Notes under the pieces: generated by a model
Databases searched by the model: none
What the model saw: only the letters and a program-made list of their open reading frames with translations
What the model was told of the DNA's origin: nothing
NCBI GenBank assembly: GCA_017436025.1
Contig: JAFSDX010000044.1
Location: forward strand, 1-41,725
Direction of reading: 5' to 3'
DNA: 41,725 nucleotides
Origin: Thermoguttaceae bacterium
GTDB lineage: Bacteria; Planctomycetota; Planctomycetia; Pirellulales; Thermoguttaceae
Program-made: the position numbers and the translations under genes
In this document: positions 1,830-26,573 of the stretch, one piece after another
Layout of the letters: every line of letters begins with the position of its first letter
Position numbering within the stretch: the first letter of the stretch is position 1

Positions 1830-3434
1830 ATGATTCGAGTTTTTAATACGCTGACGCGAACGAAAGAAGAATTCCAACCGACGACGCCGGGCAAAGTCGG
1901 CATGTACCTCTGCGGCCCGACCGTTTACAAGCCGAGCCACATCGGGCATATGGTCGGCCCGGTCATTTTCGACGCGATCAAACGCTACTTGACGTACTCC
2001 GGTTTCGAGACGACTTGGGTCGTCAACATCACCGACGTCGACGACAAACTGATCGCCGAGTCGCAAAAACGCGGGATTCCGATGAGCGCCGTCGCCGACG
2101 AAATGACCGCCGACTACAAAGCGAACCTCGCCGCGATGGGCGTCGACACGATCGACGTCTTCCCGAAGGCGACCGACTACATCGGCGAAATTATCGACTT
2201 CACCGCCGACCTGATCGCCAAGGGCTTCGCTTACGAGTCGGGCGGCGACGTCTACTTCGAGGTCGAAAAGTTCGCGGAATACGGGAAGTTGACGAACCGC
2301 ACCCTCGCGCAAATGACCGGCGACGGCGGCGGAACCGCGTCGCTGAAACGTTCGCCGTTCGACTTCGCGCTTTGGAAGTCGGCGAAACCGGACGAACCGT
2401 CTTGGGACTCGCCTTGGGGCAAGGGCCGTCCGGGCTGGCACATCGAGTGCAGCGCGATGAGTTGCTCGATCCTTGGCGAAACGTTCGACGTTCACGGCGG
2501 CGGGCTCGACCTGCAGTTCCCGCACCACGAGAACGAAATCGCGCAAAGCGAAGCCCGCAACGGCAAGCCGATGGCTAAGTACTGGATGCACAACGGCTTA
2601 ATGCAAGCGTCGAACGAGGTCGGCAAAGTCGGCGGTCGCAAGACGCGCGAAGCGGACGGGGCCGAAAACGGCGAAACCGGCGCGAAAGAAGGCGACCTCG
2701 CGTCGCAAGAAGCCGGAAAAATCAGCAAGTCGAAGGGCGCGTCGGCGTTCCGCGACCTGTTGGCGAAGTTCCAACCGGAGAACATTCGCTTCTTCCTCCT
2801 GTCGAGCCATTATCGCCGCCCGATCGACTACAGCGAAGACCGTTTGCGCGAAGTTGGCAAGGGTCTCGAAAGTTTCTATCGCTATTTCAAGCGTTTTGAA
2901 GCGGTTAGCGGCGAGTCGTTTTACTCGCTCGACGCGCCGAAGACCCGCGCCGAAGGGGACGCGTTCGAGAAATCGGAAGCGCTTTCCGGCGAGTTCGGCG
3001 ACCAAATTCGCGCGCTTCGGGCCAAATTCCTCGACGCGATGGACGACGATTTCAACACCGGCGGCGGCGTCGGCGTTTTCTTCGACTATTTGCGAACGCT
3101 GAACAAGTTCGTCGAGAGCGAAAAACTCGAAACGACCGCACCGAACGACGCCGCGACGCAACCGGCTCGCGCGACGTTAAAAGCCGCGACGCAAGTCTTT
3201 AAGGAACTGGCCGCGACGCTCGGTCTCTTCCGCGCTCCGGTCGAAGAAGAGTCGGCGCAAGACGATTCGCTCGTCGAACCGCTGATGACGCTCCTGATCG
3301 ACCTGCGCCGCGCCGCGAAGAAAAATAAGGATTTCGCGACCGCCGACGAGATTCGCAACCGCTTGAAGGAACTCGGCGTTTCGCTCGAAGACCGTCCTGG
3401 CGGCGTCTGCGTTTGGACGCGCGAACGTTCTTGA
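1830..3434 (+). CDS. cysS: Cysteinyl-tRNA synthetase
   Basis: This class I aminoacyl-tRNA synthetase charges tRNA-Cys with cysteine in the cytoplasm. All landmarks are visible: the zinc-binding Cys28 in YLCGPTVY, the HIGH motif at residues 37-40, the WHIECSAMS and FPHHENE segments that supply the other zinc ligands, and a KMSKS-type motif written KISKS at residues 297-301. The open frame extends to GTG 1821, but I prefer ATG 1830 because it places Cys28 exactly as in the E. coli enzyme. The protein (534 residues) is longer than usual. Roughly 30 extra residues rich in Gly, Glu and Lys lie between MHNGLMQ and the KISKS loop, where most family members need only about a dozen. The gene is followed within 100 bases by holB on the same strand. 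Confidence 0.97.
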   Translation: MIRVFNTLTRTKEEFQPTTPGKVGMYLCGPTVYKPSHIGHMVGPVIFDAIKRYLTYSGFETTWVVNITDVDDKLIAESQKRGIPMSAVADEMTADYKANLAAMGVDTIDVFPKATDYIGEIIDFTADLIAKGFAYESGGDVYFEVEKFAEYGKLTNRTLAQMTGDGGGTASLKRSPFDFALWKSAKPDEPSWDSPWGKGRPGWHIECSAMSCSILGETFDVHGGGLDLQFPHHENEIAQSEARNGKPMAKYWMHNGLMQASNEVGKVGGRKTREADGAENGETGAKEGDLASQEAGKISKSKGASAFRDLLAKFQPENIRFFLLSSHYRRPIDYSEDRLREVGKGLESFYRYFKRFEAVSGESFYSLDAPKTRAEGDAFEKSEALSGEFGDQIRALRAKFLDAMDDDFNTGGGVGVFFDYLRTLNKFVESEKLETTAPNDAATQPARATLKAATQVFKELAATLGLFRAPVEEESAQDDSLVEPLMTLLIDLRRAAKKNKDFATADEIRNRLKELGVSLEDRPGGVCVWTRERS

Positions 3435-3449
3435 ACTTGAAACGGAAGT

Positions 3450-3497
3450 CGCGTCGTTTCGACGTTTAAATCGGTCGAGACGACGCGGCGTCGTCTG
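3450..3497 (+). promoter_or_regulatory. Overlapping inverted repeats between cysS and holB
   Basis: A 14-base arm at 3450-3463 pairs with 3474-3487 (one G-T wobble, 10-base loop). The second arm overlaps another perfect 9-base inverted repeat, 3478-3486 with 3488-3496 (AGACGACGC / GCGTCGTCT). The two structures share bases and cannot form together. No T tract follows, so this is not a standard intrinsic terminator. It could affect transcript ends or holB expression. Confidence 0.5.
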
Positions 3498-3530
3498 ACG
3501 AAACGGCGGCTTTTCGGGAGGAAATCGGCT

Positions 3531-4721
3531 TTGAGTTGGCAAGGAATTTTCGGTTGCGACGAGATTGCGCTCCAATTCGCGCGAGCGAACCGACGCAAGC
3601 GGCTCGGCGGAAGTTTTCTGTTCGTCGGCCCGAACGGCGTCGGGAAGCGAACGTTCGCGTTCGCGTTGGCGAAGACGCTTCTTTGCCGCCGTCATTTTCC
3701 GAAACGAGGGGACGCCGCGCTCCTCGACGGTTGGAACGACGCGTCGCAAACCGCCGATTCGCAAGAGTTCGACCGCGACGCCGAACTTCTCCGCTTCCAA
3801 CCTTGCGGCGAATGCGAAAGCTGTCGCCAATTCGAGTTGCGACGCGACGTCGACGAAGCGTTAATCCCGACGCACCCGGACTTTCATTACGTTTGCAAGC
3901 CGCCGGAGCGTTCGCTGTTGCCGCTGGAACTCCTTGTCGGCGATAAAGATAACCGAATGCGCGCCGGGCTCTGTTTCGAGCTGAACCAAACGGCGTATAT
4001 GGGCGGCCGCAAGATCGCGGTGATCGACGACGCCGACTTTTTCAACCAAGAGGGGGCGAACGCGCTCCTGAAAACGTTGGAGGAGCCGCCGGCGAACTCG
4101 TTGATCATCTTGATTGGAACGAGCGCGACGAAACAGCTGCCGACGATTCGCTCGCGCTGTCAAACCTTTAGATTTCAACCGCTTGCGACCGACGCGATCG
4201 CGCAAATTTTGCTCGACCGAGGCCGCGTCGAAACGCCGGAGGAGGCCGATTCGGTCGCGCGGCGTTCGCGGGGCTCTCTCGTCGAAGCGGAAAAGGCGCT
4301 CGACCGCCCGTTCGCCGGGTTCCAACAGGAGCTGTTGCGCGAGTTGGCGCAAGAGCGTTTACACGCCGTCGACTTTGCGGCGCGTTTGAACGAGTTCGTC
4401 GAGGAAGCCGGGAAGGAGGCGCCGCCGCGTCGCCGACGTTTGCAGGCGACCCTTGCGACCGCGCTCGAATTTTATCGCGGGCTCGTCGCCGCGCTCGACG
4501 CGACGTCGCGAGGAGCGCGACCGGTTCGCGACGCGTCGGTCGTCGGGCCGTATCTCCGCGCCGCGCTTGAACTTGGGCGTTGGAACGTCGAGTCGGCGAT
4601 CCGCTGCGCCGAACGAACGCTCGACGCGTTGGAGCAAATCGACCGCAACGCGAACCTTCCGTATATCGTCGAGGCTTGGCTCGTCGAACTCGCCGCCGAA
4701 ACGCGCCGTTTGGGGCGTTAA
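3531..4721 (+). CDS. holB: DNA polymerase III, delta prime subunit (clamp loader)
   Basis: This AAA+ clamp-loader subunit opens and loads the sliding clamp together with DnaX and delta. Residues 33-41 form the Walker-A-like loop GPNGVGKRT. Cys52, Cys92, Cys95 and Cys98 (CGECESC) form the zinc module of DnaX/delta-prime proteins, here with a long spacer between the first and second cysteine. The segment EGANALLKTLEEPP and the SRC motif in TIRSRCQTF are diagnostic. The start is TTG 3531, supported by GGGAGG at 3516-3521 with a 9-base spacer; no ATG is available before the conserved MSWQGIFG. The C-terminal third is divergent. The gene probably shares transcription with cysS. It could be annotated as a DnaX-like ATPase, but the length (396 residues) and the lack of a tau-type C-terminus favour delta prime. 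Confidence 0.9.
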   Translation: MSWQGIFGCDEIALQFARANRRKRLGGSFLFVGPNGVGKRTFAFALAKTLLCRRHFPKRGDAALLDGWNDASQTADSQEFDRDAELLRFQPCGECESCRQFELRRDVDEALIPTHPDFHYVCKPPERSLLPLELLVGDKDNRMRAGLCFELNQTAYMGGRKIAVIDDADFFNQEGANALLKTLEEPPANSLIILIGTSATKQLPTIRSRCQTFRFQPLATDAIAQILLDRGRVETPEEADSVARRSRGSLVEAEKALDRPFAGFQQELLRELAQERLHAVDFAARLNEFVEEAGKEAPPRRRRLQATLATALEFYRGLVAALDATSRGARPVRDASVVGPYLRAALELGRWNVESAIRCAERTLDALEQIDRNANLPYIVEAWLVELAAETRRLGR

Positions 4722-23351: not shown

Positions 23352-24632
23352 ATGACTTGGGGCAACGAGGAAAAACGGACGTTTAATCGGAAAAAACGTC
23401 GTTTTTTAACTTCCGTTAAAAAACAAGTTGCGTTTTCGACGTTGGCGACGGCGACGGCGGCGCTTGGAACGCTTTGCGGCGCGGCGTCGCTTACCTGGGC
23501 GCAAGACGCGGTTCCGACGATCGACATTTCGCAAGACGTTGAGCGGCAAACAGTTATCGCCGCCGGAACGCCCGAGCTTTACCAAGGGCATCCGTATTCC
23601 GTTTTGAATCCGGACGGTTCGATTCTGCTCGTTTGGTGCGTCAATCACGGCGGCCCGGCGGGGCCTATCGCTCGAAGTCGCGACGGCGGAAAGACTTGGG
23701 AACGCCTCGACGACCGCGCGCCCCGGGGGTATAAGGAGCATATCAATTGCCCGAGTATTTATCGCCTCGTCGACAAAAACGGCAAGGCTTGGCATTGGGT
23801 TTTTTCCGCGCAACCGTTAATGCCGCGCATTGTAAGCGCCGACGGAGGCGAGAGTTGGGAAGAGAAGGAACCGCTCGGTTTTAAGAACGTGATGGCGTTC
23901 AGTTCGATCGTTCCGGCGAATCCCGGCGTCGAAGACGGGCGCTATATCGGCTTCTTTCATCGGCGCCGCGCGGCGGACGGAACGATCCTCAACAAGGAGC
24001 CGAACGTTCCGGGGCGACTCGAAGTCGCAATGTCGATAACTGCCGACGCCGGCTTTACTTGGAGCGAACCGCGAACGATCGCCGACGTTCCGGGGAAAGA
24101 CCTTTGCGAACCGTTCGCGTTTTGGTCGCCGGACAAGAAGGAAATCTGTTGCCTGATGCGCGAAAACACGCATAAAGGGCGAAGTTGTATGACTTTCAGC
24201 GCCGACGGAGGCGAAACTTGGTCGACGCCGACCGATACGAGCTGGGAGCTGACCGGCGACCGGCATATCGGCGCTTACGTCGACGACGAACGCCTCTTTA
24301 TCTGCTTCCGCGACCAAGCGTTAGAGAGCGAGGAAAGGGGAAATTTCGTCGGTTGGGTCGGAACTTACGACGACTTGAAGCAAGCGAAACCGGGCGATTA
24401 CCGCGTGAAGTTGTTACATTCGTTCGCGAAACCTTGGCGCGGCGATTGCGGGTATCCGGGCGTTTCGCGTCTCGACGACGGAACGATCGTCGCGATCACT
24501 TACGTCAAATATCGGGACGACGAAAACAAGCATTCCGTTGTCGCGACGCGCTTTACGGTTGACGAACTCGACAAAATGGCGGCGGAAATCGCGTCGCAAA
24601 AAGCCGTCGAGAAGGAAAAAACGGAAAAATAA
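23352..24632 (+). CDS. Secreted sialidase-family protein (four Asp boxes)
   Basis: This 426-residue exported protein has a long basic signal sequence (hydrophobic core residues about 25-50, cleavage near TWAQD). The mature part is a six-bladed propeller of the sialidase/neuraminidase superfamily. Four Asp-box repeats are visible: [24 protein letters not shown] and SADGGETW. Arginines and acidic residues expected for a GH33-type active site may be present (for example RHIGAY, and [14 protein letters not shown] near the C-terminus), but I cannot assign the triad with confidence. It may instead be a related exo-hydrolase. An AAGGAG element is well spaced from the ATG. Sialidases in gut anaerobes release sialic acid from mucin, consistent with a host-associated lifestyle. 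The C-terminus is a short Lys/Glu-rich tail. Confidence 0.85.
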
Positions 24633-24633
24633 A

Positions 24634-24763
24634 AACGACGCGGCGTCGTTAGCGCGTCCGTCGGCGTTAAGAGCCTAAGAGAAAGGAGTAACGGCGGAGT
24701 TTTTTAGCGCGGAACGTCGGAACGCGCTAACGCTCTCGCCGGGAACGTTGGCGACGCGCCAAC
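24634..24763 (+). repeat. Cluster of three inverted repeats after the sialidase gene
   Basis: Three perfect inverted repeats occur in tandem: AACGACGC/GCGTCGTT at 24634-24650, TTAGCGCG/CGCGCTAA at 24704-24730 (11-base loop), and GTTGGCG/CGCCAAC at 24747-24763 (3-base loop). None is followed by a T tract on the plus strand. The remaining intergenic sequence to the next gene contains a TATAAT at 24777-24782 without a good -35 and a run of nine G at 24807-24815. Confidence 0.5.
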
Positions 24764-24909
24764 GACGATAATTTCTTATAATTGCTACGTAAATCAAACG
24801 GTTAATGGGGGGGGGACGGTAAAGGCGGGGAGCGTCTTTTCGTCCCGAGATAAAAATCGCGTTTAAAAACTAGTTTAAAAGTTGGCTTAGATTGGCGAAA
24901 GGGAAGAAA

Positions 24910-25323
24910 ATGAATTTTACCAATTTAACGTATAAAGACGTCGATATGATTCTCGGCTTCAATTTGACCTTTTGCATTGGGCCTCCCTATTGGTCGCGAA
25001 AGTCCGGTTTGTCTTCTAAAAAAAGAGCGCGAATGGATAGGACGGCGGCGTATCTAATTAAAAGGTTTATCGCGCCTTTGCGGAAGTACAAGTTATTATT
25101 GCCTACCGACGCGCGGGCGCCGTCAAGCGCCTTGGATTGTACGTACAACGTCTATTTATCGAAAAAGCGGATAAAACTCATTGCCGAAGTTTTACAAATT
25201 GGCGTTGAGATAAGTCAAGAAGACAATTATTACGACCTACAGGTAATTACCGGATATGAAATTGAAGAAATCAAAGAATTTTTTGAAAAGTTCAAGTCGA
25301 CGATAAATAAAGGTTGTTTGTGA
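24910..25323 (+). CDS. AT-rich orphan protein of unknown function
   Basis: This gene encodes 137 residues from ATG 24910; the frame opens at TTG 24892, but AAAGGGAAG lies just before the ATG and supports the later start. No signal peptide, membrane segment or known motif is visible. The protein is rich in Lys, Ile, Leu and Tyr, with a charged helical C-terminus (GYEIEEIKEFFEKFKS). Codon use (tta, ata, att, aaa, aat) and base composition are clearly unlike the surrounding GC-rich genes, a sign of recent transfer. It is isolated: hairpin-rich sequence lies before it and an imperfect copy of a 35-base sequence is found on each side. The size and charge would suit an immunity, antitoxin or anti-phage type protein, but nothing in the sequence demonstrates that. 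Confidence 0.65.
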   Translation: MNFTNLTYKDVDMILGFNLTFCIGPPYWSRKSGLSSKKRARMDRTAAYLIKRFIAPLRKYKLLLPTDARAPSSALDCTYNVYLSKKRIKLIAEVLQIGVEISQEDNYYDLQVITGYEIEEIKEFFEKFKSTINKGCL

Positions 25324-25400
25324 AGCGCGTCGAGGCGTTGCAAAATACCCCTCGCGCAACCATTGTAAAAAAAACGTTTACAAAGCGAACGTAAGAATCG

Positions 25401-26573
25401 CTAACGCTCTCGCTTAGAAACGTCGGCGACGCGCGCTAGAAAACGCTTCGACGAGCCCGGCCCGACGCCCGGAAAGCGTCCGATTTCGTCGATTTGGCGC
25501 AACGCCGTTTGCAGCGTCGTTTCCGCGTCCTCGAACGTCGCCGCTTTATTCGGGTAAATCTCGTAAAGTCGGCGATATTTGGTCGGCGTAATGTTCGGCA
25601 TAATAACGTTTGCGCCGCGAGAAAGCGCGCTTTTACGTCCGCCGCTTCCGTCGAGCGTCGCGACCGACGTAACGCTCGGAATATTGGCGTCCGGGCAAAG
25701 AACGCGGGACAACGCGACAACCTTAAACGCGACGTCGTTCGTATTCGGAACTTGATCGCTCGACGTCGGATAACGAAACGCAAAGCGCGGCGCGGCGGCG
25801 CTTTCCGATTGGGGCGGCGAAAGCGCGGAAGGAATCGGCGCCGTTTGCCAATAACCGTCGCGAATTTCGAGCGACCCTAACGGCGTTCCCGGGTGCGGCA
25901 GGAAGGGCCCGGAGCCGATCATATCGAGGTCGAGTTCGCGAAAGAGCGCCAAATCGCGCGCCAGGTCGTCGAACGTTTGGCCGGGAATCCCGATCATAAC
26001 GCCGCTTCCGACTTCGTAACCGATTTCGCGCAAACGCTTTAGAAAGTCGATTCGCTCCGTTAAACCGGTTCCGCCGACGTCGGGATGAAGCGCGCGGTAA
26101 AGCGTCGGATTCGACGTTTCAAAGCGCGCCAAATACCGTCTCGCGCCCGCTTCTTGCCAACGGACGAGTTCCGAATCCGTTCTTTCTCCAAGACTTAGCG
26201 TTACTATCAAACCGAAGTCGTCGCGAATCGCTCGAACCGTTTCGGCGACGAACCCCGCGTCGAGCGTTCGATCTTCGCCCGCTTGCAACACGAGCGTCGC
26301 GAGGCCGTTTTTTTTCGCAAACTTCGCGCATTCGAGGATTTCCTCTTGCGTCATTCGATAACGCTCGACGCGTCGCTCCGCTCGGACGCCGCAATATAAA
26401 CAGTTGCGAGAACAGCGGTTGGAGATTTCGACGAGACCGCGGAGTCGAACGGCGTCGCCGACGCGTTCGCGGCGAATTTGGTCGGCGGCGTCCCAAAGCG
26501 TTTGGAGGCGCTCCGCGTTCGTTTCGCGGAGCCAAGCGGCGATTTCCGGCGGCGAGAGGTTCGAATCGAGCAT
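25401..26573 (-). CDS. hydE: [FeFe]-hydrogenase maturase HydE (radical SAM)
   Basis: This radical S-adenosylmethionine enzyme of 390 residues takes part in building the diiron subcluster of [FeFe] hydrogenase. The cluster motif C-x3-C-x2-C is at Cys54, Cys58 and Cys61 (EISNRCSRNCLYCGVRAE). Other family segments are LVLQAGEDRTLD, LSLGERTDSELVRWQEAG, RFETSNPTLYRALHPD, VMIGIPGQTFDDLARDL, GPFLPHPGTPLG and NVIMPNITPTKYR. About 40 residues after GTPLG (Ser/Pro/Ala-rich) are longer than typical. HydE is separated from biotin synthase and PylB by this pattern, though paralogues exist. HydF, HydG and hydrogenase subunits are not in the window. The gene implies fermentative hydrogen metabolism. A minus-strand promoter and a divergent LysE gene lie upstream. 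Confidence 0.9.
   Translation of the reverse strand: MLDSNLSPPEIAAWLRETNAERLQTLWDAADQIRRERVGDAVRLRGLVEISNRCSRNCLYCGVRAERRVERYRMTQEEILECAKFAKKNGLATLVLQAGEDRTLDAGFVAETVRAIRDDFGLIVTLSLGERTDSELVRWQEAGARRYLARFETSNPTLYRALHPDVGGTGLTERIDFLKRLREIGYEVGSGVMIGIPGQTFDDLARDLALFRELDLDMIGSGPFLPHPGTPLGSLEIRDGYWQTAPIPSALSPPQSESAAAPRFAFRYPTSSDQVPNTNDVAFKVVALSRVLCPDANIPSVTSVATLDGSGGRKSALSRGANVIMPNITPTKYRRLYEIYPNKAATFEDAETTLQTALRQIDEIGRFPGVGPGSSKRFLARVADVSKRER

Follow-up and report, generated by a model that had tools for sequence, protein, structure and literature searches.

The interval between a sialidase-like gene and hydE in a Thermoguttaceae bacterium holds a single AT-rich gene bracketed by imperfect repeats, which raises the question of what this gene encodes and how it came to occupy its site. 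The window analysed here (41,725 nt) is the entire contig C12 of the genome G000 (4.3 Mb, 281 contigs, 88.7% complete), and its relevant features are listed in Table 1. The GC content of the gene is 0.401. For 22 window genes (all long ORFs except the pair truncated at the contig ends) the mean is 0.589 (sd 0.024, minimum 0.549), and not one of the 2,622 overlapping coding windows of 414 nt had a GC content this low. The composition thus agrees with the first-pass annotation, which had described an isolated, foreign-looking single gene between imperfect flanking repeats. An in-frame TTG could extend the ORF to 24892, and a purine-rich, RBS-like AGGGAAG was seen by eye at 24900-24906 in the upstream spacer. 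The promoter scan revealed no sigma-70-like promoter upstream of the gene on the plus strand, and the yield of the promoter and terminator scans did not exceed that of shuffled sequences. Eleven window neighbours were scanned; two had no family match, and neither a toxin family nor a recombinase family was detected in the set. A transposon was rejected, since no transposase was found and the 137-aa gene is the only ORF of at least 80 aa wholly inside the interval. An integron cassette was discarded because no attC-like core was seen by eye, and an RNA element because Rfam gave a single weak match (BTH_s1, E 0.13; 17.9 bits, gathering score 74) that was taken as chance.

Table 1 Features of the sialidase-hydE interval (positions in the window)
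Feature	Position	Strand	Remarks
Sialidase-like BNR protein, left neighbour	23352..24632	+	PF13088, 1.7e-14
Left imperfect repeat	24712..24759	+	Also in G007, G008 and, up to the contig end, G003; mostly lost in G006
Upstream spacer	24760..24909	+	Alignable in all four species, pairwise identity 69-95%
Orphan AT-rich gene, candidate immunity protein, 137 aa	24910..25323	+	Orthologues in G006, G007, G008; distant homologues in G017, G067
Downstream spacer	25324..25386	+	25324-25385 identical in G000 and G006 (62/62 bases)
Right repeat	25387..25434	+	Also in G006, G007, G008; minus strand encodes the hydE end
hydE, right neighbour	25401..26573	-	TIGR03956, 9.3e-84, above cut-off

Homologues were searched in 20 genomes of the genus, including G000 itself. 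Four of these carry a full-length copy (90-100% identity) and a fifth, G017, a distant one (31%); matches in five further genomes (E 0.06 or worse) were taken as chance. In G006, G007 and G008 the orthologue, with 90-92% protein identity, occupies the same site between sialidase and hydE. The GC content of all four copies is 0.38-0.40, whereas sialidase and hydE have values of 0.57-0.60. Purifying selection is indicated by dN/dS values of 0.16-0.33 in all six pairs. That a short, isolated gene without family is a non-functional relic of AT-rich DNA is therefore scarcely credible: it is intact in four species and is homologous to proteins of G017 and G067. In G004 a gap of 85 bp separates the sialidase match from that of hydE on a single contig, and this gap contains no gene. 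The gene is thus conserved and under purifying selection, AT-rich in its four carriers, and either present or absent at one fixed site; the comparison of the interval in relatives that the first-pass annotation had proposed finds it anomalous in composition in these carriers and not present in all. The contig of G003 stops in the left spacer and that of G001 starts inside hydE, so neither genome can be scored for presence. These two ends (G003:C542 end, G001:C183 start) and the start of G008:C202 are breaks of MAG contigs in the interval or the adjoining hydE, and they may reflect mixtures of strains with and without the gene or merely fragmented assemblies.

As the earlier annotation had stated, the 137-aa protein has no recognisable family: searches of Pfam, NCBIfam, PADLOC and PHROGs gave nothing above chance (best E 0.017). 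All six members known, including the two distant homologues described below, were compared with Pfam at E values up to 10, in a search whose filters remove most matches above 0.1. No described immunity family was matched, Imm families included, and no SUKH model was matched by any of the six; a chance-level match to RNR_N occurred in four of them (best E 0.03). A sequence search of solved structures returned one match (E 0.69, repressor-like), which was likewise taken as chance. No homologue was found in the phage, plasmid and viral-contig collections, the last searched via short patterns. A pattern-based scan of genome contigs recovered four loci, those of G006, G007, G008 and G017. In overlapping samples of genomes from the class (397) and the phylum (392), with at most 10 candidates scored per genome, only the genome of origin was matched. 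AT-rich, patchily distributed orphan genes are a common guise of antitoxin and anti-phage defence genes, and the gene has this look; such a function is nonetheless very unlikely here, given the negative PADLOC result, the lack of homologues in the phage, plasmid and viral-contig collections and the absence of a partner gene at the site.

The model of the window protein (mean pLDDT 78, built from five sequences only) gave a best Foldseek E of 0.082 and a best BFVD E of 0.37, and its best VIA match was a spidroin domain (Z 4.4, 98 residues, rmsd 3.9). The model of the G067 homologue (pLDDT 81) reached a best Foldseek E of 0.11. In VIA it matched residues 159-266 of BIRC6 (Z 8.1, 99 residues, rmsd 3.1), with the next unrelated row at 3.8. 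The four BIRC6 entries are one protein and count as a single observation; a Z near 8 may reflect a common or chance arrangement, and no function is drawn from the likeness. Among the best 50 matches of each fold list no immunity protein was named, and no known immunity protein gave a fold match that carried weight. Strands and helices follow one another in almost identical order in the two models, an agreement that is not independent since the underlying alignments overlap.

A profile built from five homologues and searched over 119 genomes of the family added one protein, in G067 (E 1.9e-5). Its score of 30.5 bits compares with a best of 10.8 in 16,628 scored shuffles and falls to 27.7 bits when the G017 row is left out. 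The gene or a homologue is thus patchily distributed, occurring in 6 of 119 family genomes. In G017 the homologue immediately precedes a gene matching SUKH-1 (PF09346, 3.1e-20), and at E 1e-5 the genome contains no other match to this family. Three ORFs without Pfam match follow the SUKH-1 gene on a contig of 5.3 kb. Repeats of 43 nt with 86% identity flank this SUKH-1 gene (L050:2620-2662 and 3243-3285), making it a second repeat-bracketed immunity gene.

The homologue in G067 is located within a 20-kb stretch (L065, G067:C55:1-20000) that contains four copies of a putative toxin-carrier module, each with differing downstream ORFs, and many small and varied ORFs. An Imm42-like protein (weak match, E 0.026) and a toxin-like tip (DUF4258, E 0.003, under the Pfam cut-off) are encoded in the locus, and 6 of the 10 ORFs scanned had no match at E 0.1. 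The homologue itself continues in frame and stop-free into a Sel1-repeat protein, which would be odd for an immunity gene. Relatives of the module were found right behind a SUKH gene (G067:C126) and on a G066 contig that also encodes an RHS-repeat protein. The module was detected in 2 of the 119 family genomes, both outside the genus of the window, which tells against the immunity reading. The stretch is a probable polymorphic-toxin cassette array with its immunity genes, judging from its gene content. It also holds a duplication: a 300-nt segment from the 3' end of the Imm42-like gene (1827-2126) recurs with 98% identity at 3437-3736, and this second copy lies directly upstream of the homologue.

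Since the distant homologues adjoin immunity-type genes, the gene is most likely a stray "antidote" gene passed among related species. We place a little more weight on this reading than on all others together: the gene product would belong to a hitherto unnamed family of orphan immunity proteins and would block a toxin tip that neighbouring cells deliver. The immunity role guessed at by the first-pass annotation thereby gains neighbourhood evidence from G017 and G067. Membership of an immunity locus with a known family is seen beside SUKH-1 in G017 and more weakly beside the Imm42-like gene in G067. The proposed family assignment draws on the neighbourhoods of these two distant homologues only, one of them on the 5.3-kb contig. 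SUKH proteins are not exclusively immunity proteins. The gene in the window is not encoded beside a toxin, its neighbours being sialidase and hydE; orphan immunity copies are known elsewhere, so the absent adjacent toxin removes only the claim of a cognate pair. Alternatively, an accessory gene with a non-conflict function, e.g. a small regulator, may stand near immunity genes by accident in two relatives. This is a serious though clearly less probable account. It would explain the lack of any family match and of a toxin family among the 11 neighbours scanned (two of which matched nothing), and the RNR_N and repressor-like matches would suit it if they were not at chance level. It accords poorly, however, with the position of both distant homologues in immunity-type loci, and with the patchy spread through the family and the exchange between species described below.

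The flanking repeats had suggested an origin by insertion. The two 48-nt repeats, somewhat longer than first noted, are identical at 40 of 47 aligned bases plus two 1-nt gaps and share an exact 15-mer (24725-24739 and 25399-25413); the right one covers the final 10 codons and the stop of hydE, as the first-pass annotation had seen. The caveat that part of their similarity might be chance holds to a degree. When the two intervals were shuffled 1,000 times with dinucleotide content preserved, the repeat score of 29 was never reached (maximum 23). Among 1,951 pairs of stretches drawn at random from the window, however, 3 reached it, so in sequence this GC-rich the similarity is unlikely without being unique. 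The 14-mer GCTAACGCTCTCGC has just two exact matches across the 4.3-Mb assembly, namely the two repeats, and a dispersed repeat was therefore ruled out as far as exact matches go. In G006 the right repeat is retained and the left one reduced to a 12-nt piece. A perfect 8-bp hairpin seen by eye, CGTTGGCG-ACG-CGCCAACG (24746-24764), overlaps the left repeat and is absent from the G007 and G008 sequences.

From these repeats the gene could be read as cargo: a small mobile unit, integrating at the end of hydE through site-specific or repeat-mediated recombination, would have brought it in, and the 48-nt repeats would be the ends of the unit or a duplicated target. The idea draws on a repeat score above that of all shuffles, on the existence of an empty site, on a right repeat that is the hydE 3' end, and on direct repeats also found by the G067 homologue (98%, 300 nt) and around the SUKH neighbour in G017 (86%, 43 nt). 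We nevertheless consider it improbable. The first-pass annotation had predicted an empty site with a single repeat copy; presence and absence do vary, but G004, the one empty site found, carries neither repeat. Its hydE has another tail and is joined directly to what, in the other species, is the sequence beyond the left repeat. Short ACGCGCT-like words, seen by eye at both edges of the gap in G004, fit a simple deletion there. A site-specific integrative element should leave one repeat in an empty site and was rejected on this one genome. The interval contains no second ORF of at least 80 aa, and the 14-mer is nowhere else in the assembly.

The phylogeny points in the same direction, since the gene is present in the earliest-branching species and missing from a nested one. 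In a single-gene rpoB tree (FastTree, 18 of 20 genomes; G014 and G018 omitted because their rpoB is split), G006 is the first branch within a clade of seven species and G004 groups with G007 and G008 (supports 1.0 and 0.958; 0.456 for G004 with G008 alone). With a copy in G006, insertion elsewhere is no more likely than loss in G004. For this one gene and one empty site, ancestral presence followed by loss would thus be as simple as a late insertion, or simpler. The hydE tails differ among outgroups, so that the ancestral hydE end cannot be fixed. Taken as agents of movement the repeats find no support, and they are probably not an active recombination site.

Sequence divergence suggests another route of spread. 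Pairwise identity is 93-98% for the orphan gene, 85-91% for sialidase and 89-96% for the remainder of hydE. The dS of the orphan gene is 0.057-0.137 in the three pairs with G006, and of the overlapping 136-codon windows taken from both neighbours, none was as low in these pairs (0/102, 0/102 and 0/84). Beyond the G006 pairs the signal is weak or absent: windows as low numbered 1/89 for G000-G008, 10/89 for G007-G008 and 38/110 for G000-G007. Across the right spacer and its adjoining repeat, G000 and G006 agree at all 111 aligned bases, against 89% identity in the rest of hydE. In the left spacer, G006 is closer to G007 (0.947) than to G000 (0.846). As the dS of the gene lies far under that of its neighbours in the G006 pairs, the interval has probably been exchanged between species, and a swap by homologous recombination is the simplest account of these alignments. 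A slow rate peculiar to the orphan gene is a less probable explanation of the low dS.

If the gene encodes an orphan immunity protein, the protein would be made without a partner toxin, would be cytoplasmic, and would act by binding and blocking a toxin tip received from a neighbouring cell. The toxin might be of the Rhs type and come from related gut planctomycetes, and the benefit would be survival of the target cell. The gene has probably spread in part because species exchanged the short interval by homologous recombination, with sialidase and hydE as the common flanks, and G004 would have lost or never gained it; the flanking repeats would then probably represent a hydE end duplicated in an old insertion or rearrangement.

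Gut Bacteroidales and other bacteria are already known to carry and pass on orphan immunity genes (PMC12247911). Cases are also described in proteobacteria, e.g. Vibrio and Serratia. The gene resembles those of gut bacteria in its host, in being of the immunity type without a toxin and in its interspecies spread. It differs in being a single gene and not an array, with no recombinase among the neighbours scanned, in its planctomycete origin and in the lack of a SUKH match, and a link to a T6SS is not shown. In contrast to the rAID (acquired interbacterial defence) cluster, an array with a recombinase, the interval contains one gene and no recombinase among 11 neighbours. Polyimmunity loci of polymorphic toxin systems are well described, and planctomycetes are among the lineages listed in PMC3482391. 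The heterogeneous loci treated there find a parallel in the distant homologues, one beside SUKH-1 (G017) and one in a putative toxin-carrier array (G067), whereas the gene in the window stands alone and has no Pfam family beyond the chance-level RNR_N. Immunity genes of the type VII secretion system are also reshaped through homologous recombination, according to PMC9484751; there, however, tandem copies in one genome are involved, whereas the present gene would have been swapped between species via its flanks.

In the literature searched, no publication pairing Thermoguttaceae with an immunity protein was found, nor one joining orphan immunity, direct repeats, Rhs and horizontal spread. The novelty would lie in a family that is nameless in the libraries searched and in a single-gene, single-site case in a planctomycete. 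In its full form, the proposal is a new planctomycete immunity family with an alpha-beta fold for which the searches made gave no close bacterial match and, at fold level, a likeness to a stretch of eukaryotic BIRC6 alone (G067 model), present as a single orphan gene at a fixed site and traded by homologous exchange of flanking housekeeping genes with no recombinase; this combination is put forward tentatively and is, as a whole, rather doubtful. If the immunity reading is right, orphan immunity genes would also shape uncultured gut planctomycetes and could spread singly at a fixed chromosomal location, needing no mobile element of their own, and an undescribed immunity family would exist for which the Rhs proteins of the same group are the place to seek the toxin.

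The genus contains both components of such a toxin-immunity system. RHS repeats occur in 4 of the 20 genus genomes, G000 and G008 among the carriers; at E 1e-5 none was found in G006, G007 and G017, all of which have the gene or a homologue, and this tells against the immunity reading. SUKH-1 is more widespread (14 of 20), with three matches in the genome of origin. One of its loci (L116, G000:C148:500-5000) contains a SUKH-1 gene followed by further small ORFs and is possibly another immunity cluster. The same genome has two open frames with RHS repeats, G000:C124 (L109) with 5,494 residues and G000:C173 (L110) with 2,637 residues, the latter extending to the end of its contig.
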